IMG/VR virus record: IMGVR_UViG_3300019927_000116
Span: 1 to 31,451 of that record
DNA from: a virus
DNA: 31,451 nt
Strand: one strand, 5' to 3'
Part shown: piece after piece, positions 3,022 through 27,996 of the stretch
Numbering within the stretch: the first letter of the stretch is position 1
Layout: every line of letters begins with the position of its first letter
The notes under the pieces: model-generated
Told to the model about the DNA's origin: nothing
The model's database searches: none
Seen by the model: the letters and a program-made list of their open reading frames with translations, nothing else
Position numbers and translations under genes: made by a program

Positions 3022-3074
3022 ATGTGACCCTATCGTGCGGTGGCCTCTTTGTCGTTGCCCCGAGAGGTACGGGC

Positions 3075-4605: not shown

Positions 4606-5533
4606 TTAGGCGACCGGGGAGACCTGCGCGGCCTGGACGTGTGCGCCGAAGTCCTCCGAGACGAGGGTCCCGTAGGCGTCGAACGCCATCTGCTCCTGGG
4701 GCGCGACCTTCGCCAGCGGCTTCATGCTGGTTTCCTGGAGCATGGCGAGGTAGGTCGCGTCCATGTTGACCGTGTACGCCTGTTCGTACTGCGAACCATC
4801 GGCGCGGTCGAATATCCGCGGGATGGCGTGGGACTTGAACACCGGCACGTTGTCCAGCGTCAGCGTCGAGAACCCGGCCTGGAGTTCTTCGATGTTGCCC
4901 TCGTAGCGCTGTTGGCTCACGAGACTGTCACGGACCTCCTTGTGCCAGTCGAAGTCACAGACCACCGCGAGGTTCTGTTTCGGCGCGCCGGCATACTCGG
5001 CCTCGTCGATGAGCGTCCGGGTCGCCTGTTCGTAGTCCTCGGGGTTGGCGCTGGCCGGGTCGCCGACCTGGACCGGCGTCCCGCCCGTGTACGACCCGCC
5101 CGTAGCGAAGTCGTTCAGCCCGTCCCACCCGCTGGCGTTGTTCGAGGACCCCAGGATGATCTGGCGTTCGATCTCCTGTTCCATGGCCCGAAGGAACGCC
5201 TGCTGAGTCGTCGACTCGGCGTTCCGAAGGTTCGACGACGCGAGGATGAGCTTGTCCTCCAGTCGCGTGGCCGCTCCGAGGCCCACCACGTCGAACACCG
5301 GGTCGCCGTCGTAGGTGGCATCCGCGTAGTTGCTCCCGGCGCTGTTTCTGGAGTTCGACCGTGTTCTGACCGCGGCCACCTGGGGTCTTCGATCCCATCG
5401 GGTCGCGGTAGATCGTCATGTGGTCGAGGTCGCCGAACGAGTTCTTGAACATCGCGTCGGCGTCCTTCTTGATTTCCGTGCGATTCTTCAGGTGCTTGGC
5501 ATCCGCACTCGGGCGGAAGTTGTTTGCACTCAT
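4606..5533 (-). CDS. HK97-fold major capsid protein, interrupted by a +1 frameshift near 5345-5347
   Basis: The frame opening at ATG 5533 encodes MSANNFRPSADAKHLKN and stays plausible to Q62 (TVELQ). The remaining ~245 codons, with clear capsid features, are one base out of phase. That second frame reads NSAGSNYADATYDGDPVFDV, then ERQIILGSSNNASG, the NLAVVCDFDWHKEVRDSL helix/strand, LDNVPVFKSHAIP and a C-terminal EQMAFDAYGTLVSEDF. Removing one A of the AAA codon 63 (plus-strand TTT at 5345-5347) restores a 308-aa protein, the usual HK97-type length. Either a sequencing/assembly indel, a real inactivating mutation, or +1 recoding explains this. The gene starts 2 nt after the protease/scaffold stop and would be co-transcribed with it. 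Capsid identity is supported by position directly after the protease. Confidence 0.75.
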
Positions 5534-11470: not shown

Positions 11471-14194
11471 TTACGGAGAGCCGTCACCCGCGTAGTCGTC
11501 GCGGTCCACCTCGTCGGGGTCGCGCAGCAGAACGTTGCACCGACAGCCGATGCCCGGCTCCGAATCGCCCGGCACCGATTCCTTCTGCACGCCGCGCCCT
11601 TCCGCCGAGTAGTCCACTTCCCAGTTATCGCCCGGACGCTTCCACGTCCCGTCCATGGCCTCGTGGGCCGGCCGAACCCGCCGGTCGCCCGACGTGTTCC
11701 ATATCTCCACCTTGTCGATCTCGGCGGCGAACTCCGACCGTGCGTGGCCCGTGGCGATATGCAATTCCTGGCGGGCGATGCGTTCGGCCCCGGTCCACCC
11801 CTCGTTGATGTCGGCCTGCTCGGCGATGTCGTCGGCGATTTCCCGCGTGCCTTTGCCTTCGGCCCACCCGTCGCCGACCGTCTCGCGGATGTCCTCGCTC
11901 ATCTCGTCGGCGAACTTGTCGGCGAACTCGACTTCCCGATCCCGTAGCTGGGACTCGATAGCGTCGATGTCCACGTCCGGGTCTTCGTCCGTCTCGGCCA
12001 CGGCGTCCTCGATGGCCTCGCGGGCGGCGTCGGCCGTCTCGTCGCGGAGTGCCGACTGGATGCGTGCCACCACGTCGCTGTCCTCGAAGATTTCCCGCAG
12101 TCGCCGGCCGAGCGAGGACAGGGATTTCTCGGTCTCCTCGTCGGCGTCGTCGGCGGCCAGCCGGTCGATGATGTCTATCACCTCGTCGTCCTCCAGCACG
12201 CGGTCGAACAGCGCCCGTACGTCGTCGGCGATTTGCTCGGTCAGGTCCTCTACCATGTGGGGCTGCACCGTGAACTCGTGCCAGTCGTCGGACTCTCGGA
12301 GCGGTTCGTCCTTCCGTACCGACCTATCCGCGTTTCCCGAACCACCTGCCGAGTCCTGCTGTATCTCGCTCGCGCCGTCGACGGTGTGGGGATCGGACAG
12401 CGCCACCGCCTCGTCACGGTAGCGACTCCACACCGCGTAGGCCTTCCGCTCGCCGACACCGACGGCGCGGATCGGTTGGCCGTCGAGGTCGCCCGCCATG
12501 CCGTCGGGGTATTCGTTCTCGCCGACGAACACACCGCCGTCGCAGACTTCCGCGAGGTCGTCGCAAAAGTCGATAAGCGTGGTCCGGCGCTCGAAGGCCG
12601 GCCCGCCAGCGTTGGGGAACTCCACGGCCGCGCCGGTCGCCTTGTCGAGTGCCAGCGCGAGGTCTCCGAGCGCCCCCTCGTCGTCGGGGGCCGTATCCTC
12701 GACCACCTCGTCTTGGAACCCGTTGAACTCGTCGTCGACCGGCGGCCGACCGAGTTCCTTCCGGGCTTCGTTCCGGCGGATGAGGCCACTGGAGAACTCG
12801 CTGTTGACCCGCTCGGAGATCATCTTTCGCGTCGACTCGCTCATGCCGGGCTTGAACTCAAAGCGGTAGCCCTCGCCCCAGTGTGGCGCGATGAGGTCGT
12901 GGTTGATAATCCGTTCGAGCTTCTGGAGGTACGGCCCGAGGGTGTTACTCTCGAAGTTCTGCCTCTCCCCCTGAAACGTGTTGTAGTTGACCCGCTCGGG
13001 TTCGATCCCCACCACCGCCGTCGGGACCTGGAAGGCCGAGGCGACCACGCGAGCGTACCACTTCATGCGCTCGGTGAACTCCAACTCAGAGAAGTTCATA
13101 CTCATCGGCTCGAACTTCACGTCCCCGCCGCGGCCGGCGAACATGAGCGACTTGTGGGGTTTGCCCTTGACGTTCTCGGCGTTTTCTTCCTTCCATTCTT
13201 TCACCTGCTGGCGGTCCCACTCCTCGAACACCCACGCCCCCGACGGGATCGACCCGCGGGAGAGATACTGCTGTTCCTGTGTCACCGCGAGGTCGATACT
13301 CTGGAGGAAGTCCTCGACGAGCAACGTGGGCGGCATCCCGTATCGGCGATTCGACCGCGACGACATATCCGACCAGACCATTTCCGCCGCGTCGAAGAAC
13401 TCGGGTTGGGTGCCGCCCCAACTCGTCGACGTGGGCGCGTCGGTCGACCCCGACCCCGGACTGTGGTGGTCGTCGAACTGCCAGTACCCCTCGACGATGC
13501 CCGTCCGGTCGTGATAGTCCTTCGTCCACACCTCCGGGGCCGTCACCTGGAGTGCCCGCGGTTCGATAGTCTCCGGGTCGGCCGCCAGTTCGTCGCCGTC
13601 GTAGGCGCTCCGGTGGAAGGCCTTCACCGTCGCCATGCTCCCGACTTCGAGGAGGTCGGCCATCCACTGCTCGACCATATCGTGCCACGTCAGATCGGGG
13701 TTGGGTTTGGACAGCAGGCGATAGATGCGCTCTGCCGTGGCGTCGGCGAGTTCGTCCGGCGCGTCGGCCTTCGAGATGGGGTCGCGTTCTTCCGGGTGCG
13801 TGGCGAGGCGTTTCCGCGTCTCGACCGCGCCGTTGGCCTCGGTGATCGTCCACGGCGTCTCGGCGATCTCCTTGGTTATGGACTGGACGAGCATCCCGAC
13901 CCACGTGTTCGCCTGCCCGAGGTTCCTGAGTTGGATGGGGTCGAAGTCCCACCGGACACCACGCGACGGGTCGTACAGCCACGGGAAGTCGGCGCGGTTC
14001 TTGACGTTGCGCCCGAGCGTGTCACCGTGGGCCTTGGCGAAGGGGGCTTCCTCCGGGTCGGTCTGTGTTCGCCCGGTGTCGGTGATCCCGTGCTCCCTGG
14101 CGAACTCCAGGTTGTACTGTTCCACGTCCTCCGGCGTAGCCATCTCCGGCGCAGGTGGTCGGTCCCCACCGCCGCCGAAAATGTTGAAGTCCAT
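11471..14194 (-). CDS. Portal protein fused to MuF-type minor head protein
   Basis: A 907-aa protein. Residues about 60-490 are portal-like: RNLGQANTWVGMLVQSITKEIAETPW near the start, VTQEQQYLSRGSIPSGAWVFEE, an FSELEFTERMKWYARVVASAFQVPTAVVG segment typical of portal wing/stem regions, then FKPGMSESTRKMISERVNSEFSSGLIRRNEARKELG at the crown side. An acidic linker and helical region (about 500-740) leads to a C-terminal Mu gpF-like domain (about 750-907) with GWTGAERIARQELH, VEIWNTSGDRRVRPAHEAMDG and the terminal GIGCRCN. In most phages these are two genes; here they form one chain, tying MuF copy number to portal copy number. The start ATG 14194 lies exactly 26 nt after a CGCCTAAC box. Confidence 0.85.
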   Translation of the reverse strand: MDFNIFGGGGDRPPAPEMATPEDVEQYNLEFAREHGITDTGRTQTDPEEAPFAKAHGDTLGRNVKNRADFPWLYDPSRGVRWDFDPIQLRNLGQANTWVGMLVQSITKEIAETPWTITEANGAVETRKRLATHPEERDPISKADAPDELADATAERIYRLLSKPNPDLTWHDMVEQWMADLLEVGSMATVKAFHRSAYDGDELAADPETIEPRALQVTAPEVWTKDYHDRTGIVEGYWQFDDHHSPGSGSTDAPTSTSWGGTQPEFFDAAEMVWSDMSSRSNRRYGMPPTLLVEDFLQSIDLAVTQEQQYLSRGSIPSGAWVFEEWDRQQVKEWKEENAENVKGKPHKSLMFAGRGGDVKFEPMSMNFSELEFTERMKWYARVVASAFQVPTAVVGIEPERVNYNTFQGERQNFESNTLGPYLQKLERIINHDLIAPHWGEGYRFEFKPGMSESTRKMISERVNSEFSSGLIRRNEARKELGRPPVDDEFNGFQDEVVEDTAPDDEGALGDLALALDKATGAAVEFPNAGGPAFERRTTLIDFCDDLAEVCDGGVFVGENEYPDGMAGDLDGQPIRAVGVGERKAYAVWSRYRDEAVALSDPHTVDGASEIQQDSAGGSGNADRSVRKDEPLRESDDWHEFTVQPHMVEDLTEQIADDVRALFDRVLEDDEVIDIIDRLAADDADEETEKSLSSLGRRLREIFEDSDVVARIQSALRDETADAAREAIEDAVAETDEDPDVDIDAIESQLRDREVEFADKFADEMSEDIRETVGDGWAEGKGTREIADDIAEQADINEGWTGAERIARQELHIATGHARSEFAAEIDKVEIWNTSGDRRVRPAHEAMDGTWKRPGDNWEVDYSAEGRGVQKESVPGDSEPGIGCRCNVLLRDPDEVDRDDYAGDGSP

Positions 14195-15328: not shown

Positions 15329-15636
15329 AGTACCACCACGGCGGCGATTAGTATGCACGACAGCAGATGCACCGTTTGATCCTCTCGGATGCCGAAGTCC
15401 TTGGCGTCGGTCGTTGCATGGAGTATCGGGACGGTGGCCCCCACCGTCGCAACGTCAGCGAGTGGCGCGAGTGGGGCCACGGCGGACGCGGCGACGAGGC
15501 CATGCACCACCGAGTGTGTCAACAACGCCGCCGTACTGTCGTGCTTGTTCGATGCCATCCAGTCAGTCTGAAGTGGGTAATCCGCGACGAGGTGCGCGAG
15601 CGCGAGTGCCGTAACAACCGGGTAGAAGGTCACCAT
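15322..15636 (-). CDS. DUF3307-like membrane protein
   Basis: A 104-aa protein starting MVTFYPVVTALALAHLVADY. The segment LAHLVADYPLQTDWMASNK followed by a LTHSVVHGLV helix is the signature I associate with DUF3307 membrane proteins of phages and bacteria. Hydrophobic helices lie at about residues 5-18, 37-52, 55-72 and 87-103. The embedded His and Asp residues (HLVADY, LTHSVVH, ILHATTDAKDF) are conserved-looking and may be functional. It overlaps the terminase stop by seven bases and the next gene's start likewise. Its role in the viral cycle is unknown. Confidence 0.7.
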   Translation of the reverse strand: MVTFYPVVTALALAHLVADYPLQTDWMASNKHDSTAALLTHSVVHGLVAASAVAPLAPLADVATVGATVPILHATTDAKDFGIREDQTVHLLSCILIAAVVVLW

Positions 15637-16934
15637 TCGATGACCACCCCGCCGGCTTCGAGCGCCGTGTCGTGGGTAAACAGCGCGTAGCGCATGGCGT
15701 CCATCAGGTGATCGTTCTCCTTGAGCGGCGCGTCCATCCCGTCCTTGTACTGGTACTGGTTGAACTCGTTGATGAGGTTCTGGCAGTCCGTACACACCGA
15801 CAGGTTCTCGCGGAGTCCCTCGACGTGTCGAATCCCCTCGTCAACGGACTTGTCGGCCTCGTCGACCGTCAGCCCCTCGCGGGTGAGCTTCTGTATGGTC
15901 CGGGGTTCGTGGTCGGCGTAGATCGGCCCGCGGCCATGGTCCTCGTGCATCCCCTGGAGTTCCGCCGCCAGCGTGTCGTCGGTGACGCGGGGTTGATAGA
16001 ACTCGTCGACGGCATACCACTCCTCGCCGGCCCGTCGCAGGCACACGATAGCCGACGGGACCGACCCGCCGAAGTCCAGGCCATATATCGTCTCGTCGAA
16101 CGTGTCCGGCAGGTCGCCGCGGTCGATCTTGTTGCCGTCGTCGAACCACGTATACACCAACCCCTCGAACTTCACGAAGTCGCCGAGGACTTCCTGTTGA
16201 TACCGCTGGCCGTCGTGGTCTTTCTCCAGCGATTCGAGATAGTCCTCCGGGTTGTGCGGGTTGGCGTGTGACGGGACCCGAAGCAGAGCCAGCCGGTCGG
16301 CACACTCGTACACGTCGGCCGCGCCCACCTCCCGATACTGCCCCTCGTGGTCGCCGACAAAGAAATCATACGTGTGATTCTTCCCGCTCGGCGTCGTCGT
16401 CATGTACCCGTTGCGATACTCCCCGACGCGAATCCGCTGGGTGAGGATTTCCCGCGCCCGCGGCGGGACTTCGCTCTCCTCGTCGATCCAAAACCACGCG
16501 AGATTCAGGCCGCGCAGTCGCTCGATGGTCTTTCGGTTATCCGCCGAGAGGACGAGCGCCCGCGACCCGTTCGGGGCGTGGATGCCCGGTTCCTCGGAGT
16601 GGGCCGACTGATACTCCCAGTTCACCGGCGAGTCGAACAACCCGAGTTGCCGCATCTCGAGAATCTTCACCCACGCCTGTCGCATCTCGCGGGCGATGTT
16701 GACCTTCTCGTCGGGCGGGGCCTGCTTATAGAGGTCCGACAGGTCGCCGAGTATGTCCTGCATCTCGGCGGTCGTCTCGTCGGCCATGCGGTCGAGTCGT
16801 TCCTGGGCCTTGTCCTGCACCTGCTCGGCACTGCCCCCGTGGAACCGACAGACGTTACTCCCTGGTATCGCCGGATTTTTGCACCGCTCGCCGGTCGACT
16901 TGGCGGTCGCGGTGCATCGGTCTGAATCGTCCAT
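15630..16934 (-). CDS. Terminase: small-subunit-like N-terminus joined to a large subunit lacking Walker A
   Basis: A 434-aa protein. Residues 1-97 look like a halovirus small terminase: a zinc-finger-like CTATAKSTGERCKNP...CRFHGG (Cys7, Cys18, Cys29, His32) followed by charged helices. From about 100 the sequence is large-subunit: NGSRALVLSADN (122-133), RLRGLNLAWFWIDEESEV (139-156, Walker B with DE at 151-152), the coupling motif TTTPSGKN (179-186), then the RNase H-type nuclease with Asp287 (GLDFGG), Asp341 (YADHEP) and Asp412 (HLMDAMRYAL). The P-loop region GxxxxGKT/S that must precede Walker B is absent, and so are about 60-100 residues of the ATPase core. The frame is intact across the junction (about 16620-16650). 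As written it could cut but not pump DNA. Confidence 0.8.
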   Translation of the reverse strand: MDDSDRCTATAKSTGERCKNPAIPGSNVCRFHGGSAEQVQDKAQERLDRMADETTAEMQDILGDLSDLYKQAPPDEKVNIAREMRQAWVKILEMRQLGLFDSPVNWEYQSAHSEEPGIHAPNGSRALVLSADNRKTIERLRGLNLAWFWIDEESEVPPRAREILTQRIRVGEYRNGYMTTTPSGKNHTYDFFVGDHEGQYREVGAADVYECADRLALLRVPSHANPHNPEDYLESLEKDHDGQRYQQEVLGDFVKFEGLVYTWFDDGNKIDRGDLPDTFDETIYGLDFGGSVPSAIVCLRRAGEEWYAVDEFYQPRVTDDTLAAELQGMHEDHGRGPIYADHEPRTIQKLTREGLTVDEADKSVDEGIRHVEGLRENLSVCTDCQNLINEFNQYQYKDGMDAPLKENDHLMDAMRYALFTHDTALEAGGVVIEW

Positions 16935-16959: not shown

Positions 16960-17160
16960 TCACTCGCCGGTTGTATCGGTGTCGCCGTTCGGGGCGTTCT
17001 CTGGATGTTCAGACCTGACGTGTTCGTTCCAGATGTCGATAGCGCCGTCAGTGTCGTCGGCGTCGGACAGGTCTATCGGTTCGGAGCAACCTTCGCACCT
17101 GATTTCACCGTACTCGTGATACGCCTCGTGAAACGTGCTGTAGTCCATTTCGTCACGCAT
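16960..17160 (-). CDS. Small C2H2-like zinc-finger protein
   Basis: A 66-aa protein starting MRDEMDYSTFHEAYHEYG. CEGC (residues 22-25) is followed 22 residues later by HVRSEH, giving C-x2-C...H-x4-H, the spacing of a C2H2-type finger with a long acidic loop. The N-terminus is aromatic and helical. It overlaps the upstream RHH-like gene by eight bases and lies 25 nt before the terminase start. Possible regulator or terminase accessory; unproven. Confidence 0.6.
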   Translation of the reverse strand: MRDEMDYSTFHEAYHEYGEIRCEGCSEPIDLSDADDTDGAIDIWNEHVRSEHPENAPNGDTDTTGE

Positions 17161-17341
17161 CGTCGGCCCCCATCGCGTCTGTCACGGCCTCGGGCAGTTC
17201 GGCCTCTCGCTCCAGTGCGTCGAGCGCCCGGCCGACAGTCCCCGAGAGCGTTTCGCCCTCGCGGTTGTGGTCCTTGAGTCGGTCGTGGGTCGGATCGACG
17301 AGTCGAACCGTCGTCGACTCGCGGCGGTGTTCGTCACCCAT
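17153..17341 (-). CDS. Small RHH-like regulator
   Basis: A 62-aa protein starting MGDEHRRESTTVRLVDPTHD. The sequence TTVRLVDPTHDRLKDHNREGETLSGTVGRALDALE fits strand-helix-helix of a ribbon-helix-helix domain, with the usual GETLSGTVGRAL second helix. It is close in plan to residues 1-40 of the 10812-11114 protein. ATG 17341 is 2 nt below the upstream stop, arguing against the longer frame to 17461. It could autoregulate the palindrome-bearing promoter at 17506, but this is inference. Confidence 0.6.
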   Translation of the reverse strand: MGDEHRRESTTVRLVDPTHDRLKDHNREGETLSGTVGRALDALEREAELPEAVTDAMGADDA

Positions 17342-17343
17342 TG

Positions 17344-17493
17344 TTATCTCTCCTCCCCGACGAGTAGGTCGGTGTCGATCTGCTCGCCCGGTTCGAGGTC
17401 GTAGTACGACACTTGACGCGCTTCGGTTGTGCCCCGTGGCCGGAATATCATCTTGAAACACCCGTCTTCGTCAGCGTAGTAGTCGCTTCCCAT
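17344..17493 (-). CDS. Small acidic protein heading the terminase operon
   Basis: A 49-aa protein starting MGSDYYADEDGCFKMIFRPR, with a beta-hairpin-like CFKMIFRPR and SYYDLEPGEQ. One cysteine. The start ATG 17493 is supported by an ACGCTTTG box at -29 to -26 and an operator palindrome at -22 to -13. Function unknown. Confidence 0.5.
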   Translation of the reverse strand: MGSDYYADEDGCFKMIFRPRGTTEARQVSYYDLEPGEQIDTDLLVGEER

Positions 17494-17505
17494 ACAAACC
17501 GATAC

Positions 17506-17528
17506 GCCCCCCGGCATACAAAGCGTTA
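17506..17528 (-). promoter_or_regulatory. Promoter with GCC-N4-GGC operator, copy 3
   Basis: GCCCCCCGGC at 17506-17515 is at -22 to -13 from ATG 17493. TTTG is at -29 to -26 within AACGCTTTG, so this site combines the ACGC-type box and the operator. Confidence 0.6.
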
Positions 17529-17541
17529 CGGTGAGTGGTGC

Positions 17542-18072
17542 TTAGTCCAGCCCCAGTGCCGCTCGAACGACACCGCGCGGGTCACCGTCGGTCTGTAGGT
17601 CTGACAGGTGGCCGTCGGGGTCGGACACACTCGTCTCGTGGTGTGTGTATACGTCGGTTGTTCCATCGCTGTTACGGAACACGTAACACTCGGTTTGCGT
17701 GCCGTCGTCGTGGGTCCAGACGACGTGAGCCATCGAGAGTTTGTCGCCATGCTCCGGTGGGCGACGTTTGATCGACGACAGCAGGTGGAGGGACCCGCCC
17801 GCGTCTCGGCACAGACCAACCACGTCCTTCACGCCGCCGTGTTCGGTCGTCACGAACTCCGGGTCCGACCGGGCGCCCTTCTCGTTGACGAACTCGGCGA
17901 ACCCGAACGGCCGGCGGCGCTGGAGGACCGGGAACAGCAGGCGCTTGATGCCGTGGAGGGTGCGATACTCCGGCCACGTGAGCGAGCGTTGCCACGCGAG
18001 GCCGGCCCGAAGGACAAGCGCCAGCGCGAGGACGGCCACCGGGTTCTCGAACAGCAGGTCCACGGGCGTCAT
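17542..18072 (-). CDS. Membrane-anchored protein, unknown
   Basis: A 176-aa protein starting MTPVDLLFENPVAVLALALVL. One N-terminal membrane helix (residues 10-26) is followed by a soluble domain with WPEYRTLHGIKRLLFPVLQRRRPFGFAEFVNEK and a beta-rich part (SLHLLSSIKRRPPEHGDKLSMAHVVWTHDDGTQTECYVFRN). The C-terminus is acidic. There are no catalytic signatures I recognise. It is coupled by an ATGA overlap to the 46-aa membrane gene upstream, suggesting the two products act together at the membrane. Confidence 0.6.
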   Translation of the reverse strand: MTPVDLLFENPVAVLALALVLRAGLAWQRSLTWPEYRTLHGIKRLLFPVLQRRRPFGFAEFVNEKGARSDPEFVTTEHGGVKDVVGLCRDAGGSLHLLSSIKRRPPEHGDKLSMAHVVWTHDDGTQTECYVFRNSDGTTDVYTHHETSVSDPDGHLSDLQTDGDPRGVVRAALGLD

Positions 18073-18209
18073 GCCTCACCACCCGAGGTCGGAATCCGCT
18101 TGTCGACGAGGCGACGGGCCAGCTTGGCGAAGTACCCCAGCGGCAGGATAATCGCCACCAGCAGGCCCCACAGGGGGACGGTCACGGGTTGGGACAGCCA
18201 TTCAATCAT
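18069..18209 (-). CDS. Small single-pass membrane protein
   Basis: A 46-aa protein starting MIEWLSQPVTVPLWGLLVAI. The hydrophobic stretch PLWGLLVAIILPLGYFA is followed by a basic tail (KLARRLVDKRIP), predicting an N-out/C-in single helix. It overlaps the next gene by four bases. The size and topology would fit a holin-type or spanin-like factor, but there is no sequence motif for that. Confidence 0.55.
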   Translation of the reverse strand: MIEWLSQPVTVPLWGLLVAIILPLGYFAKLARRLVDKRIPTSGGEA

Positions 18210-18230
18210 ACGCGACCGTTCGTGTCGGAC

Positions 18231-18247
18231 CCCCTTACATTTAGGGC
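18231..18247. promoter_or_regulatory. Compact bidirectional promoter between two membrane-protein operons
   Basis: CCCTTACATTTAGGG (18232-18246) is a near-palindrome. Read on minus, its GTAA lies at -29 to -26 from ATG 18209. Read on plus, its TTTA lies about 30 nt before ATG 18272. One TBP site could serve both directions within 62 nt. Confidence 0.5.
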
Positions 18248-18271
18248 CCCTGCGGCGTAGGTGCAGACTAT

Positions 18272-18616
18272 ATGCAGGCCACGCCTGAGGATGCCCGGCG
18301 GTCGTTCACTGACGCGCCGTTGCGACGGGCATGGGCCGAGGTGTACTGTTTCGTGCTGACGTTCGTGTTTCACGACGGCAACAACGACGGCCGAAAGGCC
18401 GGGACCATCGTCATCGTTGGCGTGTGGGCGATGATTGAAGTCGGCGCGGCCTTTGGCTACGCTTCACTCCCCGACCAGTTCTTCTTTTTGCGCATCGTCG
18501 TCGGCGTGTTGATCGGGCGGATGTGGGGCATCGAGATCAACAACTTCGCGGGCGTCGAGTTCGCGTATGCCAGCGACGGTGGGAACGACTCGGAGGGTGA
18601 CGATGGCGACGAGTGA
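18272..18616 (+). CDS. Membrane protein, two or three helices
   Basis: A 114-aa protein starting MQATPEDARRSFTDAPLRRA. Hydrophobic segments are VYCFVLTFVF (weak), AGTIVIVGVWAMIEVGAAFGYA and FFFLRIVVGVLIGRMWGIEI, ending in a long acidic tail (DGGNDSEGDDGDE). It overlaps the following membrane gene by 14 bases. The pair is transcribed toward, and ends against, the convergent operon at 18900. Possibly holin-like; unproven. Confidence 0.6.
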   Translation: MQATPEDARRSFTDAPLRRAWAEVYCFVLTFVFHDGNNDGRKAGTIVIVGVWAMIEVGAAFGYASLPDQFFFLRIVVGVLIGRMWGIEINNFAGVEFAYASDGGNDSEGDDGDE

Positions 18617-18824
18617 ACACACCGCCGGGTTGGTCCCAGCGGTGAACGACCTGCTGGCCGCGACGGTGATTCTCGGTGTGTATATCGTCCGATTCGGGAC
18701 CGTCGACGAAGGGGTCGCGCCCGGCCTGCCGCTCCGGGTGACGACGGACCTCCTGTTGCCACTGCTGGGTGGGGTGTGGTTGCTCGCAGTCCCAACGGTG
18801 CAGGTCGTCCAACGGTTACGGTAG
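18603..18824 (+). CDS. Small two-helix membrane protein
   Basis: A 73-aa protein starting MATSEHTAGLVPAVNDLLAA. Hydrophobic segments are LLAATVILGVYIVRF and LLLPLLGGVWLLAVPTVQVV, separated by a short polar loop (GTVDEGVAPGLPLRVTTD). Two close helices with both ends on one side and a short basic C-terminus is a common holin topology, but also that of many small unknown proteins. ATG 18603 was chosen because it overlaps the upstream gene; the longer frame starting at 18567 lies mostly within it. Confidence 0.6.
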   Translation: MATSEHTAGLVPAVNDLLAATVILGVYIVRFGTVDEGVAPGLPLRVTTDLLLPLLGGVWLLAVPTVQVVQRLR

Positions 18825-18855
18825 GAAGGGTGTGTGGTGGGCGTGTGACGGATGC

Positions 18856-18876
18856 ACGTCGGCCCGTTGCCGACGT
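18856..18876. terminator. Hairpin between convergent operons
   Basis: ACGTCGG (18856-18862), a 7-nt loop, then CCGACGT (18870-18876): a perfect 7-bp GC-rich stem in the 75-nt gap between convergent genes. It could terminate or stabilise both transcripts. There is no oligo-T tract. Confidence 0.4.
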
Positions 18877-18889
18877 ATGTCTGTTGTGT

Positions 18890-18899
18890 GCCGGGTGGC
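18890..18899 (+). promoter_or_regulatory. GCC-N4-GGC palindrome, orphan copy
   Basis: GCCGGGTGGC directly abuts the stop codon of the 18900-19133 gene. No start codon lies at the distance found for the other copies, so it is either a degenerate site or a binding site without a promoter. Confidence 0.4.
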
Positions 18900-19133
18900 T
18901 TAGGCGTTTCGGTCAGAGTCTTCGAGAAGTTCGTTCCAAACACCAAGCCACGCGACGGATAACAGGCACCCAACGAACGCCCCGACCATCATAGACAAGA
19001 AGAACCCGCCGACGTGGTAGTAGGCCAGCAGGAACATCGGCCCGACGAACAGGGCCACCGTCCCGCCGACGACCGTCACGACCAACAGCACGAACGCGAC
19101 CGGGAGTAACGCGGCTCGGAGTAGGTCGTTCAT
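18900..19133 (-). CDS. Small two-helix membrane protein
   Basis: A 77-aa protein starting MNDLLRAALLPVAFVLLVVT. Helices at about residues 8-36 (long, with VVGGTVALFVGPMFLLAYY continuing) and 45-66 (FFLSMMVGAFVGCLLSVAWLGVW), with a charged tail. Last gene of the 22560 operon, overlapping the preceding 36-aa membrane gene by four bases. Confidence 0.6.
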   Translation of the reverse strand: MNDLLRAALLPVAFVLLVVTVVGGTVALFVGPMFLLAYYHVGGFFLSMMVGAFVGCLLSVAWLGVWNELLEDSDRNA

Positions 19134-19240
19134 TTGTGACCACCTTCGCCGTGGGCATACAGCAGTGCCCACATCCCGAGTATGAACGCGATCCACAGGC
19201 CGGCGAACGACACCATGCCAACGAGTGCGACGGCGCTCAT
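19130..19240 (-). CDS. Very small membrane protein
   Basis: A 36-aa protein starting MSAVALVGMVSFAGLWIAFI. It is essentially one hydrophobic helix (residues 3-28) with a HGEGGHK tail. It overlaps both neighbours by four bases, which is the main support for its being translated. Confidence 0.5.
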   Translation of the reverse strand: MSAVALVGMVSFAGLWIAFILGMWALLYAHGEGGHK

Positions 19241-19446
19241 GACTGTCGCCCCGTCGTCGACGTGTCGCTGGCGAGGTCGTGCCCACAGACCGAACACCGA
19301 TACACCAACAGACTCGCGTGGCCGACCGGACATTCCCACGGCCCGCCCTCGTTGCGCACGCCGGCCATGCTTCGAGACCACCGCGGCCGGGCCGTGGCGA
19401 GATAGGAGTGTTTGCCGGCCACATCGCCGGCGGTGAGCATGGTCAT
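19237..19446 (-). CDS. Small zinc-ribbon-like protein
   Basis: A 69-aa protein starting MTMLTAGDVAGKHSYLATAR. The second half has ECPVGHASLLVYRCSVCGHDL: C-x3-H followed 9 residues later by C-x2-C-x-H, a compact zinc ribbon. The start ATG 19446 overlaps the PP-loop enzyme stop by four bases. The close coupling raises the possibility that it is a partner of that enzyme; unproven. Confidence 0.6.
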   Translation of the reverse strand: MTMLTAGDVAGKHSYLATARPRWSRSMAGVRNEGGPWECPVGHASLLVYRCSVCGHDLASDTSTTGRQS

Positions 19447-20348
19447 GAATACCGCCCCGGTTCGTCCTCGTACAGGATCGACACCGCTTCCTCGATTGAC
19501 GCGCCGTCCGACCGGGCCTTGAACGCCTGAACCTCTGCCGGGTCGCGTGCCCGCTGGCATCCTTCGCCGTCAAGTCCACACATCGGGAGAGTCTGCTGTT
19601 CCATCCCGTCGCGTTCGACGGCCCTCTCGTCGGAAGACAGTCCGTTCCATCCGAGGGTATCGTGAGGGAAGTCGTGGGTAATCGCTTCCTCGTACTCGCG
19701 CATACGCTGGCCGAACTCAGGGAACAATTCTTCTGTCCGTTCGAGTTCCGACGGGTCGCCGTTGGCGAGACACCCACAGTCTTTGATAACCGCCCGTTCT
19801 TCCCACAGTGGGTTTCGAGGACAGTCAGACCGGAGGATAATCTCGACTCGTTCCTTCCGCGAGAGCCGGTGAACCGGATAGACTTCGGTATGCCGGCGCA
19901 TCTCCCGAACCTTGTCATACCCTGCCCGAGTGTCTGACTCGTCGGCGGCGAGGCCGAGAATATACACTGGGTCGTCGAGTTTCGTCGTCAATAGTGAAAT
20001 CTGCCGGTCTTTGAGTTCGTTCTTGACGTTTTCATGGGCGGCGCTTCCCGGCGCACCGTCGCGGCGAAGCCACTCCAGAAAGTCCTCGTCAGTTCGGAGC
20101 GTCCACAGTTGAACACCCAACCAGTCACACAAGAGTTCCGTGTAGATTCGGTTTAACGGCACGCCGATCCCGGTGTCGAGATATATTGCGTGTGGCTTCT
20201 TGGCGAAGTTTCCGCCGGCCCGATTCGTTTCGATGGCATCCAGTGTGACGAGTGCCGCCGCTGTGCTGTCGATCCCGCCCGACATGGACAGTACCCAGTC
20301 AGGATGGTCTTCGGCACGCCCCGGCGCTCGTTGGTAGTGGTCACTCAT
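19443..20348 (-). CDS. PP-loop ATPase of the PAPS reductase / DndC-like family
   Basis: A 301-aa protein starting MSDHYQRAPGRAEDHPDWVL. The PP-loop SMSGGIDSTAAAL (residues 21-33) activates a substrate by adenylation. HAIYLDTGIGVPLNRIYTELLCDWLG (about 55-80) matches the second helix-strand of PAPS reductase-type enzymes. Cysteines at DCPRNP, KDCGCLANG and MCGLDGEGC could hold an Fe-S cluster or zinc. True PAPS reductases carry a C-terminal ECGLH-type Cys that is not clearly present, so sulfate assimilation is unlikely. A role in nucleic-acid modification, as for DndC or tRNA thiolation enzymes, is more plausible in a virus. GC is lower than neighbours. The start at 20348 overlaps the upstream stop by four bases. 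Confidence 0.8.
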   Translation of the reverse strand: MSDHYQRAPGRAEDHPDWVLSMSGGIDSTAAALVTLDAIETNRAGGNFAKKPHAIYLDTGIGVPLNRIYTELLCDWLGVQLWTLRTDEDFLEWLRRDGAPGSAAHENVKNELKDRQISLLTTKLDDPVYILGLAADESDTRAGYDKVREMRRHTEVYPVHRLSRKERVEIILRSDCPRNPLWEERAVIKDCGCLANGDPSELERTEELFPEFGQRMREYEEAITHDFPHDTLGWNGLSSDERAVERDGMEQQTLPMCGLDGEGCQRARDPAEVQAFKARSDGASIEEAVSILYEDEPGRYS

Positions 20349-20770
20349 AGCGACCCCCGAACCATCTCCTTGAAGAACGCCTCGACGTACTCCTCGCCGC
20401 AGTGTTTGCACGAGATTACCCCGTCGGGGTCGTCCCGTGTATCTGGAACATGAACCCGGTGGCCGCATTTGGGCAGGGTTTCGAGTTCGTCGAGATACCC
20501 CAGCAGGCGCTCGCGGGACCCTTCGGTCCAGGCGTAGCGCCACACGAGTTTGCCGTGTGACCGCTCGCGGTCGATCTTCTCCAGCGCGCCGGCCTGGATG
20601 GCTTTTTGCAGTGTGCCCTTCGTGTCGTGGACCTGTGCCGCCGCACCCTCGCCGCCCAGCGGCGTCTCGCGGAGGGTGAAGTCCTCGTATTCCAGCAGCG
20701 GTTGCAGGTCGTGGATGATGGGGTACAGACGGGAGATGGACGACGGCGCGCGGTTGCCGGTCTTACTCAT
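20345..20770 (-). CDS. Winged-helix-like protein with C-terminal zinc ribbon
   Basis: A 141-aa protein starting MSKTGNRAPSSISRLYPIIH. The middle (HDTKGTLQKAIQAGALEKIDRERSHGKLVWRYAWT) reads like a helix-turn-helix and wing, followed by a helical linker and a zinc ribbon: PKCGHRVHVP...SCKHCGEEYVEAF (only three clear Cys plus His). Likely DNA-binding. ATG 20770 overlaps the preceding gene by eight bases. It precedes the PP-loop enzyme in the operon. Confidence 0.6.
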   Translation of the reverse strand: MSKTGNRAPSSISRLYPIIHDLQPLLEYEDFTLRETPLGGEGAAAQVHDTKGTLQKAIQAGALEKIDRERSHGKLVWRYAWTEGSRERLLGYLDELETLPKCGHRVHVPDTRDDPDGVISCKHCGEEYVEAFFKEMVRGSL

Positions 20771-21194
20771 CGGCATCACCATCAGATACCAGAGCTTCGT
20801 ATATCGCACGCCAGCCTTCTTTTCGGATGCTCGGTTGTTTTGTCTGTCCCGAGTAGGCCTGTCGGACCGAATAATGTGTTCCTTCTTTCAACCCGAGACG
20901 GTCGGCGATATGGGTACAGTAGTCCATTGAGGACATACCACCTCGGCTGTTTCGAGTTCCGGTAGCGTGGTCAATCGGACCGAGTGCGACCACCGCCGCT
21001 TGTAGGCTCCGAATTGTCGGTTCTGACACAGAGAACTCGTCAGACACGTCAGACTGTGACTTTTCGGTTGAAACATATTCGATGGTCGCTTTGATACTCG
21101 ACGGCGCGCGTCCTTGTGAAGTGAGTTGGTCGAACGTGTCGTGCCACTCCTCAGGGAGGTCGTCTTTGTGGTCGTTGAACAATCCGCCACTCAT
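20763..21194 (-). CDS. HTH DNA-binding protein
   Basis: A 143-aa protein starting MSGGLFNDHKDDLPEEWHDT. The segment KATIEYVSTEKSQSDVSDEFSVSEPTIRSLQAAVVAL (about residues 35-71) is a clear helix-turn-helix with the SQSDVSDEFSVSEPTIRSL recognition core typical of homeodomain-like/transposase-type HTH units. The C-terminal half (DYCTHIADRLGLKEGTHYSV...) is unassigned. GC is lower than average, with many Ser/Thr/Gln. Coupled to the winged-helix gene downstream; probably regulatory. Confidence 0.65.
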   Translation of the reverse strand: MSGGLFNDHKDDLPEEWHDTFDQLTSQGRAPSSIKATIEYVSTEKSQSDVSDEFSVSEPTIRSLQAAVVALGPIDHATGTRNSRGGMSSMDYCTHIADRLGLKEGTHYSVRQAYSGQTKQPSIRKEGWRAIYEALVSDGDADE

Positions 21195-21445
21195 ACCATC
21201 TTCACCTCCGGGTCGTCGCCGTCGTCGAACTCCCGGTCGCCGACGAGATACACGAACCCCTCGCGTTCGAGCGCGTCAAGTTCGCGTCTCGCCGCCGCGG
21301 CGTCGACGCCCGCGGCCGTCTGCTGTTCGACTTCGCTCAACAGATACGAGCGCTGGAGCGACTCGTTGTCGGCCTGCTGGATGACTTCGCGGATGGTTTT
21401 TCGGATAGCGGTACGGTCGTGGGTGGGTGAGTCAGTATCGCTCAT
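21191..21445 (-). CDS. Small winged-helix-like protein
   Basis: An 84-aa protein starting MSDTDSPTHDRTAIRKTIRE. It is helical with QRSYLLSEVEQQTAAGVDAAAARRELDALEREGFVYLVGD, which matches helix-turn-helix plus wing (REGFVYLVGDREF). Such proteins often act as halovirus or haloarchaeal transcription factors. Four-base overlaps occur on both sides. Confidence 0.55.
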   Translation of the reverse strand: MSDTDSPTHDRTAIRKTIREVIQQADNESLQRSYLLSEVEQQTAAGVDAAAARRELDALEREGFVYLVGDREFDDGDDPEVKMV

Positions 21446-21642
21446 AGTTGGATTTCGTCGCCGGTTTTCGCATCGATCACGCGGTCGTGCCGTGGGTCGT
21501 CACCGCGCCGTAGGCACGACGTACAGTACACACGGGTCTCGGCCCCGCCGTTGGGTTGCCGGAGTTGTGGGTTCCGGTCGCCGTTGGGGCAGGCCCGCCG
21601 CCACGGATCGGCCTGGAGGTCGTCGAGTGTTACGTCAGGCAT
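21442..21642 (-). CDS. Small zinc-binding protein
   Basis: A 66-aa protein starting MPDVTLDDLQADPWRRACPN. Cys18 with N/G following and the later YCTSCLRRGDDPRHDR give a Cys/His set compatible with a zinc knuckle. ATG 21642 overlaps the end of the upstream gene by eight bases; the longer frame to 21882 is a shadow of that gene. Confidence 0.55.
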   Translation of the reverse strand: MPDVTLDDLQADPWRRACPNGDRNPQLRQPNGGAETRVYCTSCLRRGDDPRHDRVIDAKTGDEIQL

Positions 21643-22003
21643 CCGCGGCGAACACCTCCCAGGCCGGCGTGAGTCCGTCGGCTTCGATAGCCTCCCGAGC
21701 CTCGGCCATGACCGATTCGCTGGCCGGGATATGTGGGTTCGGCCCGAGTTCGCCGTCGGCGTACAGCGCGGCTTCCGTCCGAAGGATGTCCACGCTGGCC
21801 GTCGTCGAGACGCCGGGCGTGTAGAGTGCCGACACGTCCACCTCAACAGTCTGTTTCGTGTCGGCCGGACCGCGGATAACACGTTCCCGAATCTTGTTAT
21901 CGTCCTCGTTGATCTTGTCGAACGTCTCGACGAACTCGTCGCCCTGTCGTTTGCGTGCCAGTGCCAGCAACTTCCCGATCTCTCCGGTTCGGTCGTGTGT
22001 CAT
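21635..22003 (-). CDS. Acidic helical protein, unknown
   Basis: A 122-aa protein starting MTHDRTGEIGKLLALARKRQ. The N-terminal helix is followed by a beta-containing middle (TVEVDVSALYTPGVSTTASVDILRTEAAL) and a helical C-terminus (SVMAEAREAIEADGLTPAWEVFA). No cysteines. It overlaps the RHH-wHTH regulator by four bases and thus is co-translated with it. Not recognised. Confidence 0.5.
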   Translation of the reverse strand: MTHDRTGEIGKLLALARKRQGDEFVETFDKINEDDNKIRERVIRGPADTKQTVEVDVSALYTPGVSTTASVDILRTEAALYADGELGPNPHIPASESVMAEAREAIEADGLTPAWEVFAADA

Positions 22004-22560
22004 TGTGTTACCTCGATTTGCTCCGCTATCTCGTCGTATTCGACAGCATCCATCGGGTATGGGTCGGTGTAATCGTGGAGGTCGTCGTCCCCCACCCATA
22101 CACCTTCAACCCACTTGACCCACTGCTGTCGTGAATCGGTCCATACCTCGGAAGCTGGATGTTCCCACAGCAGGCCGCGCTTCTTGAGTTGGCGCTTGTA
22201 CTGTTCGACAGTCCGTTCAGTCGCGCCGCCGATGTCCTCGATGGCGAGTTCCACGTCGACTGACTTGATAGGCGGTTCGTGGTTGCTGTAGATGCGTTTC
22301 GCTATCGCCCGGGCCGTCTCGGGAACGCTCATTTGCTTCGAGTGGCTTGTGCGTGTGTTTTCATCGCCGCCGTCGAGAGAGGACAGGACCCGATCTAACT
22401 TGTCCTCAATCCGCTCGAAGCGGTCGCGGTCGGTATACTCCCGAATCGCCTGTCGAGAGAGTTCAGACACCGACTTTCCCGACTCGTCAGCCCACTGTTC
22501 GAGGTCGGCTTTCTCCCCGTCAGTGAGATAGACCGTCACGGGATTGTCGCGTTCGGCCAT
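22000..22560 (-). CDS. RHH-winged-helix transcription regulator heading the operon
   Basis: A 186-aa protein starting MAERDNPVTVYLTDGEKADL. Residues 7-45 form a CopG-like ribbon-helix-helix: strand PVTVYLT, helix EKADLEQWADESG, helix SVSELSRQAIREYTD. A short coiled coil follows (FERIEDKLDRVLSSL). From about 80 to 140 there is a second DNA-binding unit with SVPETARAIAKRIYS...GGATERTVEQYKRQLKKRGLLW. The C-terminus is Trp/Tyr-rich. It is the first gene of a ten-gene operon and has a perfect inverted repeat over its own TATA-like box, the arrangement of an autorepressor. Confidence 0.75.
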   Translation of the reverse strand: MAERDNPVTVYLTDGEKADLEQWADESGKSVSELSRQAIREYTDRDRFERIEDKLDRVLSSLDGGDENTRTSHSKQMSVPETARAIAKRIYSNHEPPIKSVDVELAIEDIGGATERTVEQYKRQLKKRGLLWEHPASEVWTDSRQQWVKWVEGVWVGDDDLHDYTDPYPMDAVEYDEIAEQIEVTQ

Positions 22561-22579
22561 GAATCACGACCCCCGCTGT

Positions 22580-22645
22580 ACTAGCAAAGTGCTAGTAGAT
22601 TTGTTTGGTTTACTTACACTACTACTAGCAAAGTGCAGTGTGACA
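22580..22645 (-). promoter_or_regulatory. Operator-promoter of the RHH-wHTH operon
   Basis: A perfect inverted repeat ACTAGCA-AAG-TGCTAGT (22580-22596) covers the CACTTTG box at about -28 to -25 from ATG 22560. A second copy, ACTAGCA-AAG-TGC, begins 44 nt upstream at 22624 and has a degenerate right arm. GTAGTAGTAG trinucleotide runs flank it. Confidence 0.7.
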
Positions 22646-22972
22646 GTAGTAGTAGTAGTGAAGGTTTTGCCGGTTCTTCGTGTGTGTTCGTTCGGACACA
22701 CGCCGCCGTCCGGCGATTCGTGATTGTAGTCATACCCCACTCCACTCTTTCGGAGCGGGTTCGTGTGAACACACACACGTACTGTATCAATCGGTCGGCC
22801 GTGGGCCGTGGTTTGGTCGTCCATGTGGGTCGAACCTCCCGAGAGAACAGACCGGATCGGGACCCCACACCGCAACCGTTACAACGGAACGAACCCAACC
22901 AACTCATGCATAGGGTCGGCGGGGTCTTCCTCCCGTCGTTCTCTCGTTATCCCATAGTAACAACGCCGACAC

Positions 22973-22981
22973 TAAAAACGT
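22973..22981 (-). terminator. Oligo-T terminator of the PCNA operon
   Basis: The minus strand reads AACGTTTTTAG about 33 nt after the stop of the 23014-23115 gene, the last of the operon. No coding frame starts at a fitting distance, so termination is the better reading. Confidence 0.45.
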
Positions 22982-23013
22982 TCCTACTGGTTCATAGCCA
23001 CGGCTTACGCCGC

Positions 23014-23115
23014 TCAGTCCCGAAACCGCAGTTCGGGAAAGAACCGGCCACAGTCGTTACACTCGAACGGGCGGGAGACGACCCCCAGCGAAGCGTCACA
23101 GTGCGGGCATTTCAT
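23014..23115 (-). CDS. 33-aa zinc-ribbon miniprotein
   Basis: The protein starts MKCPHCDASLGVVSRPFECN. CPHC (3-6) and CNDC (19-22) are separated by 12 residues, followed by GRFFPELRFRD: a complete minimal C4 zinc ribbon and almost nothing else. The start ATG 23115 overlaps the upstream stop by four bases (ATGA). It is the last gene of the PCNA operon. Confidence 0.6.
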   Translation of the reverse strand: MKCPHCDASLGVVSRPFECNDCGRFFPELRFRD

Positions 23116-23669
23116 AGTTCGATGGCGTACTCGGTCCCGTCGGTCGCGTCATTCGCGCACTCCAGACACCGCTGGCCCTCGAACGCGCCGGACTCGGCCA
23201 GCACGTCGGCGTCGGCCCCACACTCGGCACACCCGTCGGGGCCGTGCGTGACGGGATCGGCGGCCTGCTGTTTGGCGTCCTCGCCCCACGCCCGGACCTG
23301 GGCTTGGGTGATCTCAGAGTGGGTGCCGTGGTCGACGAGCGTGGTCCAGGTCTCGCCGTTGGCGGCCGGCATCCCAGCGGCGTCACGGTCGGGCTGGACG
23401 TGGTGGACATCCGCGCCGTCCAACTGCGATAGCGACACGTCCTCGCCGAGCGTGCCGTCGGGCAGGTGCCACGCGACCGCGGCCAGCCGATGCACCGACA
23501 CGAACACGTCGTCGGCCCCGTCGCCGGGCGAGTGCTCGCGGCGCTCGGTCGACCGCACTCTGGCGTACCCGCCGCCAGTGTAGCCCGCCGCCGAGGGTTT
23601 GAACTCGAAGCGTGGGCGCGCCCGGCGGGCGTAGGTCGGGCCGACGACATATTCGGGTGTGGTTGCCAT
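23112..23669 (-). CDS. HNH-like nuclease domain protein with zinc ribbon
   Basis: A 185-aa protein starting MATTPEYVVGPTYARRARPR. The segment VHRLAAVAWHLPD (59-71), ADVHHVQPDRDAAGMPAANGETWTTLVDHGTHSE (87-119) follows the plan of haloarchaeal HNH homing-type nucleases: a VHRLxAVA helix, DVHH (His89-His90), Asn104, and a final H-x2-H (114, 117). The usual NRPENL segment is replaced by MPAANGETW, so catalytic competence is uncertain. The C-terminus holds a zinc ribbon (Cys147, 150, 168, 171). It lies 16 nt downstream of PCNA. It might nick DNA for replication or packaging, or be a relic of a homing element. Confidence 0.6.
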   Translation of the reverse strand: MATTPEYVVGPTYARRARPRFEFKPSAAGYTGGGYARVRSTERREHSPGDGADDVFVSVHRLAAVAWHLPDGTLGEDVSLSQLDGADVHHVQPDRDAAGMPAANGETWTTLVDHGTHSEITQAQVRAWGEDAKQQAADPVTHGPDGCAECGADADVLAESGAFEGQRCLECANDATDGTEYAIEL

Positions 23670-23685
23670 AGGTTGATCTCTTTCG

Positions 23686-24456
23686 TTACTGCGACTTGAT
23701 ACGGGGCGCGCACATCATGGTCACGTCGACCGCGCCGTCGCTATGCTCGTAGTCGAGTCGGCAGGGCCACTCGTCGCCGGCCCGAATCCGAACTGCGGCC
23801 TGCTTGGGCAGGGCCGACACGAGGTCCTCCCAGTACTCGTGACTGAACAGTGACTCGGCGTCGGCGTCCACCGATGACCCATCCTGTAACGACTCGCCGA
23901 ACCGAACCCGCGTGTCGTCAGTGTCGCCCTCGCCGATAAAGTGGACAGGATTCTCTCGGTCGGGGTCGCTGTCGATCTCGACGTGATCGGACACCATGCC
24001 CACCACGTCGATAGCGTGTTTCACGGCCGCACCGTAAACCTCCACGTCGGTCGTCATCCCGTCCGACGTGTCGCTGTCGTCGACGGACGTACCGTCTCGA
24101 ATCGCGTCGGGATCAATCAGAGCCATGTTGTAGTCGGCCGATCCGATGTCGACGTTCAACCGGCGGTTCTCGGCGTTGTATTCCAACTGTACGAGCGTGT
24201 CCGAATCGGCCTTGTCGATGAAATCGTGTAGTTGTTCGAGATTCAACCCCAGGCGAATCGGTGCATCGCCGACGTGGTAGTGCTCGAACGCTTCGGCGTC
24301 GAGCCACTGGTTGACCATGGCGACGTTCGCGGGGTCAACCGGCTGTCCGTACAGTTCGCCGTCGCGGGCGAACAGCGTAGCCTCCTGTACGATACTCTCG
24401 AAGGTGTCGAGGAATCGGTCCAGCGTCGATTGTCGGATGATGGCTTCGAACTCCAT
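23686..24456 (-). CDS. pcn: Archaeal-type sliding clamp (PCNA)
   Basis: A 256-aa protein starting MEFEAIIRQSTLDRFLDTFE. Two-domain PCNA layout: VQEATLFARDGELYGQPVDPANVAMVNQWLDAEAFEHY (residues 22-60) matches the archaeal clamp pattern of ...GLSIRAVDPANVAMV..., followed by LGLNLEQLHDFIDKADSDTLVQLEYNAENRRLNV (interdomain region). The C-terminal domain ends in TMMCAPRIKSQ, the equivalent of the LAPRI tail that binds PIP-box partners. The length matches host PCNA (about 247 aa). It forms a homotrimeric ring that tethers polymerases. No polymerase is seen in the window, so it probably recruits the host replication machinery or biases it to viral DNA. It starts one base into the stop of the preceding 44-aa gene. 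Confidence 0.92.
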   Translation of the reverse strand: MEFEAIIRQSTLDRFLDTFESIVQEATLFARDGELYGQPVDPANVAMVNQWLDAEAFEHYHVGDAPIRLGLNLEQLHDFIDKADSDTLVQLEYNAENRRLNVDIGSADYNMALIDPDAIRDGTSVDDSDTSDGMTTDVEVYGAAVKHAIDVVGMVSDHVEIDSDPDRENPVHFIGEGDTDDTRVRFGESLQDGSSVDADAESLFSHEYWEDLVSALPKQAAVRIRAGDEWPCRLDYEHSDGAVDVTMMCAPRIKSQ

Positions 24457-24590
24457 TATAGAATCTCCTCCTGGGTCTCGTAGCGGTCGGCCAGCGCGTC
24501 GAGGTCGTCCGACAGCGCGCGAAGGGTCGCGGCGTCGGGGTCGTGCCGGCGGATCGTCTCCTTCACGTCCTCGCGGAACTCGTCACTCAT
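24456..24590 (-). CDS. Small acidic helical protein upstream of PCNA
   Basis: A 44-aa protein starting MSDEFREDVKETIRRHDPDA. Almost entirely amphipathic helix (ATLRALSDDLDALADRYETQEEIL). TAATG coupling to the PCNA start and an eight-base overlap upstream show that it belongs to the operon. A PIP-box is not evident. Unknown. Confidence 0.5.
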   Translation of the reverse strand: MSDEFREDVKETIRRHDPDAATLRALSDDLDALADRYETQEEIL

Positions 24591-27435: not shown

Positions 27436-27996
27436 TTATCTATATTCCGACCACTCTTCAAGCGAAAAATTGCCAGTGTCTCCTGCGGACACGATTTTAT
27501 AGTATTGGCCAGCAGGGACTCGCAATGTCGGGATTGATGGGCGGGTAAATTCTGCTGCTGACGTATTACCTTCTCGCATGATTACATTGTCAGTCTGAGA
27601 CGTATTAACGTGTCCTTGGAGTGTGACATTCACTCCATCCGCATTAGCTACTGCATTTGCTGTAAACCAAATATCACGGTTTGATGGTGCCTGATACCAG
27701 GTGTCAAAACTCCGCGAACCGGCCAATTTTTCCCAGTTGTACCCGGGAGTGGTATCAACAGCGGCTGTACTGAGCGATTGCGCGTCTATCGCCCCGGCGT
27801 TCGTAATATCGTTCCCGCTCATGTTCACCGGCCCGCGACTGACGAACTCGCCGGCCGTTTCGTCGTACTCCAGCAGGACCGTCCCACCGTCGAGGTCCTC
27901 GACGATGATAAAGCGATTATTCGCCGTGTCGTCGCCCGTCCGATACTGTGCGTCGGTCGCGTCAGCGCCCCAGTTAAGTCGACGTTCCCCGGCCAT
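27436..27996 (-). CDS. Tail fibre / adsorption protein with exchangeable C-terminus
   Basis: A 186-aa protein starting MAGERRLNWGADATDAQYRT. The N-terminal ~65 residues (NNRFIIVEDLDGGTVLLEYDETAGEFVSRGPVNMSGNDITNAG) are the type of module used by halovirus fibres for attachment to the tail. The C-terminal ~110 residues (PGYNWEKLAGSRSFDTWYQAPSNRDIWFTANAVANADGVNVTLQ...) form a beta-rich head ending in WSEYR. The coding DNA switches from high GC in the N-terminal part to clearly lower GC after about 27760, indicating domain exchange. Its CTACGCTTTT box lies 8 nt further upstream than usual (-37 to -34), so an 8-nt leader is expected. Confidence 0.65.
   Translation of the reverse strand: MAGERRLNWGADATDAQYRTGDDTANNRFIIVEDLDGGTVLLEYDETAGEFVSRGPVNMSGNDITNAGAIDAQSLSTAAVDTTPGYNWEKLAGSRSFDTWYQAPSNRDIWFTANAVANADGVNVTLQGHVNTSQTDNVIMREGNTSAAEFTRPSIPTLRVPAGQYYKIVSAGDTGNFSLEEWSEYR

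Follow-up and report, generated by a model that had tools for sequence, protein, structure and literature searches.

The open reading frame (ORF) at positions 15630-16934 (minus strand) of the window, the whole stretch of 31,451 nucleotides of the IMG/VR virus record IMGVR_UViG_3300019927_000116 analyzed here, probably represents the broken remains of two terminase genes, terS and terL, of a haloarchaeal podovirus resembling HSTV-1, from which about 300 nt have been lost. The cause of the loss is most likely technical, namely a fault of sequencing, library preparation or assembly. The lost segment would correspond to the C-terminus of TerS together with the P-loop-containing N-terminal ~75 residues of TerL, and the remains of TerS and TerL would be in the same frame by chance. 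Since the major capsid protein (MCP) gene also lacks 311 nt, out of frame, the sequence as assembled is not that of a viable virus, and a virus with it could make neither motor nor capsid. Thus, the ORF is most likely not a new kind of packaging motor.

Structure of the chimeric terminase ORF

The ORF consists of 434 codons and is open throughout. Its residues 1-92 (16659-16934, minus strand) are derived from TerS and contain a Cys/His finger, CTATAKSTGERCKNPAIPGSNVCRFHGG at residues 7-34, in the region covered by PHROG phrog_3678. Residues 93-434 (15630-16658, minus strand) are derived from TerL and contain the end of the ATPase domain, with Walker B and the coupling motif, and an RNase H-like nuclease. 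Walker B, WFWIDEE, is located at residues 147-153 (16476-16496), and the coupling motif TTTPSGKN at residues 179-186 (16377-16400). The nuclease Asp residues D287 (16074-16076), D408 and D412 (both within 15699-15713) are spread over 15699-16076 and are invariant in an alignment of 11 TerLs. In profile searches, PHROG phrog_2 (TerL) spans residues 80-421 (1.7e-34), and both Pfam Terminase_6C and Terminase_6N are matched, the latter starting at profile position 28 only (1.1e-15). The solved TerL structure 5oea matches residues 234-418. The original prediction had described a TerS finger N-terminus and a TerL with Walker B, TTTPSGKN and the nuclease Asp residues joined in one ORF, and the reading frame itself, Pfam, PHROG and the alignment all agree with that description.

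It had also been claimed that Walker A is absent from the ORF and from the neighboring frames, and this holds. A GK[TS] P-loop was looked for in frame and none was found, and ten GK[TS] matches were obtained on both strands of the whole contig, none of which is a TerL P-loop. Of the parts of a functional TerL, Walker B with the coupling motif and the RNase H-like nuclease with its catalytic Asp residues are therefore retained, and Walker A is missing. The P-loop has a known role in DNA translocation, and because it is missing, the predicted fusion protein would be unable to translocate DNA. A finger TerS is otherwise a complete separate gene overlapping the start of terL, and here only its first 92-93 residues are left, with neither its own stop nor its C-terminus.

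This normal arrangement is seen in four related IMG/VR contigs (L030, L012, L003, and L005). There, a complete gene of 121-136 aa encodes the finger protein, which continues toward its end as ..ILDRTGHG.. or a similar sequence, and the end of this gene overlaps the start of a normal separate TerL with a P-loop (GGVGSGKT, SGVGAGKT or similar). Residues 1-92 of the window protein are 57-70% identical to the separate TerS of the four contigs, and over residues 1-93 the identity is 70% for L030 and 57% for L012. By protein alignment to halovirus TerS and TerL, both halves of the ORF were thus matched to separate genes in relatives. Between the homologous points, L030 has 322 nt, L012 has 298 nt, and L003 and L005 have 289 nt that are absent in the window; the length of the deletion can be given only as this range of 289-322 nt, because the nearest complete terS-terL region (L030) is just 56-70% identical. 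In all four contigs the length of the missing segment is 1 mod 3, which fits an in-frame join of two genes lying in different frames. An accidental deletion would give such an in-frame outcome with a chance of one in three.

The junction itself lies at about 16655-16661 (minus strand), not at the 16620-16650 originally assigned to it, and includes codon E93 (16658-16656). The TerS part is kept through KIL, and the TerL part is kept from the residue after a conserved IIP (EMRQLGLF...), so that after KIL the window runs as TerL past IIP, EMRQLGLFDSPVNWEYQSAHSEEPGIHAPNGSRAL (the counterpart in L012 is EMRDLGLFDPPINWEYKSAYSDEPGIHAPNGSRAL). Possible microhomology at the junction is about 3-4 nt, as estimated from the relatives. 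The EMRQ/GAGATGCG repeat near the junction was considered as a recombination site and rejected, because both copies are retained.

Walker A is present in 86 of the 88 distinct related TerL ORFs; the two exceptions are cut off by a contig end and start past the Walker A site. The same fusion was searched for in related genomes and was found in none of the 86 comparable relatives, so that the form in the window is unique in the set. The exact 30-mer across the junction occurs in no other IMG/VR contig, scans of genome contigs found no relative and hence no proviral copy for comparison, and an intact copy of the missing segment was not found elsewhere in the contig. The original proposal that TerS and TerL were joined by an in-frame deletion or by an assembly collapse is therefore right, since in the relatives the two genes are separate and overlapping and contain the missing nucleotides.

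A second deletion in the major capsid protein gene

The decisive fact for the interpretation lies outside the coordinates covered by the original prediction. In the window, the MCP gene is divided into an N-terminal fragment (5333-5533, minus strand), which ends at a second deletion junction (5333-5346), and a C-terminal fragment in another frame (4606-5346, minus strand). Residues 12-63 of HSTV-1 gp14 match positions 5491-5327, and its residues 174-413 match positions 5328-4609 in another frame. The spacing from VELQK to DPVF is 366 nt in four relatives (L033, L034, L036, and L028) and 55 nt in the window, which gives a loss of 311 nt, out of frame. The closest relatives of the window MCP are those of L033 (IMG/VR 3300017523_000121), 92% identical over its C-terminal 240 aa, and L034, 85% identical, this close identity being confined to the capsid region. 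In both contigs the MCP is intact, 413 aa in one open frame with the 311 nt present.

The break is also found when these four relatives are not consulted. The match of PHROG phrog_25898 to the window MCP is split between two frames, with profile positions 17-79 in the first and 161-393 in the second, and its match to L034 covers 19-392 in a single frame. Codon-usage scoring, by a model trained on window genes including the 3′ part of the MCP gene, places the frame switch at 5333-5346. Microhomology at this junction is about 5-6 nt, again estimated from relatives.

The missing MCP segment was not found elsewhere in the contig. Among the remaining genes with known relatives, none has a frame switch within it. 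The portal/MuF, protease, tower, and recognizable tail genes are all open in the window. Because the portal/MuF gene (11471-14194, minus strand; 907 aa) is intact, the virion module can be regarded as otherwise open.

Origin of the two deletions

That two essential genes have lost segments of nearly the same size, while the genome is open otherwise, suggests a fault of the library or the assembly, less a non-viable deletion genome, and not a functional fusion. Chimeric reads, wrongly merged reads or the joining of scaffolds may have bridged stretches of low coverage, and such bridging would produce deletions of similar size. The near-equal size of the two deletions is suggestive of an artefact and is no proof of it. 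What speaks against an artefact is the short microhomology at the junctions, about 3-6 nt. A de Bruijn assembler needs more than this to collapse a sequence unaided, so that some reads were probably chimeric or some molecules truly deleted.

If the deleted molecules were real, the contig would be a non-viable genome or population variant that lost ~300 nt twice by illegitimate recombination and was complemented by intact sister viruses. We consider this possible and rather unlikely. Each junction is clean with 3-6 nt of possible microhomology, as illegitimate recombination would leave it, and the other recognizable genes are open, as expected shortly after such an event. However, two near-equal deletions in separate essential genes without further decay are improbable in nature, and a defective genome is expected to be rare beside the intact parent virus, although here it is the defective form that assembled. 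It is very unlikely that the contig is a defective virus genome occurring naturally in a haloarchaeal population, with a ~300-nt deletion in each of its packaging and capsid genes, which depends on an intact sister virus for propagation and yields the finger-nuclease fusion as a by-product.

The original prediction had gone further and proposed a packaging-deficient satellite-like or gene-transfer-like element that depends on the terminase of another virus. Such an element would have lost its motor ATPase by design, fused a DNA-binding finger to the headful nuclease and used the motor of a helper, and the in-frame fusion and the intact nuclease residues speak for it. Nevertheless, an in-frame join arises by accident in one case out of three, and the fusion recurs in no relative. 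Structural genes or an autonomous packaging programme would also be expected to be lacking by design, whereas the window has a near-complete HSTV-1-like virion set (portal, protease, and tail genes) with a frameshifted MCP gene. Known satellites take the TerL of their helper and are not known to keep half of it. This proposal is thus extremely improbable and is not supported. It is hardly credible that the P-loop segment comes from another place and is joined in trans, be it through a gene split in two or through an ATPase gene of its own in DNA that was not sequenced. The contig is unclosed and, in comparison with HSTV-1, may lack about half a kilobase between the two ends, but this possible gap would fall among the tail genes, between the orthologues of gp23 and gp25. 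A search of the window with the TerL N-termini of four relatives gave no significant match, a separate motor ATPase was not found in the contig, and relatives carry the segment exactly between the two halves.

The two deletions and their extents are observed, as are the intact genes in related contigs and the lack of the missing pieces anywhere else in this contig, and loss by a technical fault probably explains them best. A literature search for terminases with mutated Walker A and for errors of assembly found nothing directly on point. The apparent loss of the ATP-binding site of a packaging motor came from a single contig with a second lesion of the same size in its capsid gene, which calls for caution. 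Before a virus is called packaging-deficient or a satellite, its other essential genes can be screened quickly for lesions of the same kind.

Comparison with HSTV-1 and other haloarchaeal viruses

Judged by gene content and order, the window is the genome of an HSTV-1-like haloarchaeal podovirus, nearly complete and circularly permuted. HSTV-1 (Haloarcula sinaiiensis tailed virus 1) belongs to the Shortaselviridae, and its gp3, gp11-14, gp17, gp20-23, gp25-31, gp40, and gp41 match the window in HSTV-1 order, which resumes at the other contig end after window position 75. It is this order, restarting at the other end, that indicates both near-completeness and permutation. The contig ends (1-75 and 31274-31451) lie between the orthologues of gp23 and gp25, and the circle is left unclosed there, with about 550 nt that could be missing in comparison with HSTV-1. 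Most virion genes of the window are also found, in a similar order, in an independent 34 kb contig (G006).

Several other genes of the window are worth recording. A PCNA-like gene (23686-24456) and a PAPS-reductase-like gene (19443-20543) are present in the 17000-24500 region on the minus strand, and the window lacks the MCM helicase that HSTV-1 and HRTV-29 have, with no remnant of it found. The ORF at 3024-4328 (plus strand; 434 aa) has a strong coding score and runs opposite to the virion genes; it is 73% identical to a minus-strand ORF of L030 and 26% identical to an ORF of L008, and has no Pfam or PHROG match. A gp29-like virion protein (27436-27996, minus strand) has 186 aa vs 479 aa in HSTV-1. 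Its first 70 residues are 73% identical to HSTV-1 gp29 and the rest is unrelated, perhaps reflecting a swapped fibre end. It was considered as a third deletion and rejected, since the rest diverges and the stop is normal.

The TerL part (15630-16658, minus strand) looks mosaic, since its residues 93-262 share about 60% identity with the TerL of BLv36, HRTV-29, and L012, and its nuclease half resembles HJTV-4, L030, and L028. From the sequences, this suggests that an exchange may have occurred at the ATPase-nuclease boundary among haloarchaeal viruses.

The virion module of the window is of the Shortaselviridae type. Its portal/MuF, tower, protease, MCP, and tail genes are homologous to and collinear with those of HSTV-1, in permuted position, and the MCP, intact with 413 aa in HSTV-1, is broken in the window by the 311-nt loss. 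The terminase module is of another type than that of HSTV-1 and is common to a set of IMG/VR contigs, and its ATPase part is also found in BLv36 and HRTV-29. HSTV-1 TerL has the P-loop VGYAGGKT and is distant from the window TerL, with 31% identity over the C-terminal two thirds, so that an HSTV-1-type TerL was rejected as the parent. Nearer counterparts are L012 (IMG/VR 3300017815_000051) and Halorubrum tailed virus BLv36, which share with the window the PEMRDLGLFD..NWEYKSAYSDEPGIHAPNGSRAL stretch in an ATPase part about 60% identical. Unlike the window, both have a complete TerL with SGVGAGKT and a different nuclease half, and L012 retains its 298 nt between the homologous points. The likeness to L030 (IMG/VR 3300017815_000009) extends over the whole module: together with the finger TerS, 70% identical over residues 1-93, it has a TerL 56% identical over residues 94-434 and the same portal/MuF downstream of the terminase. 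In L030, however, TerS and TerL are separate and overlapping, its TerL has GGVGSGKT, and the 322 nt between the homologous points are in place.
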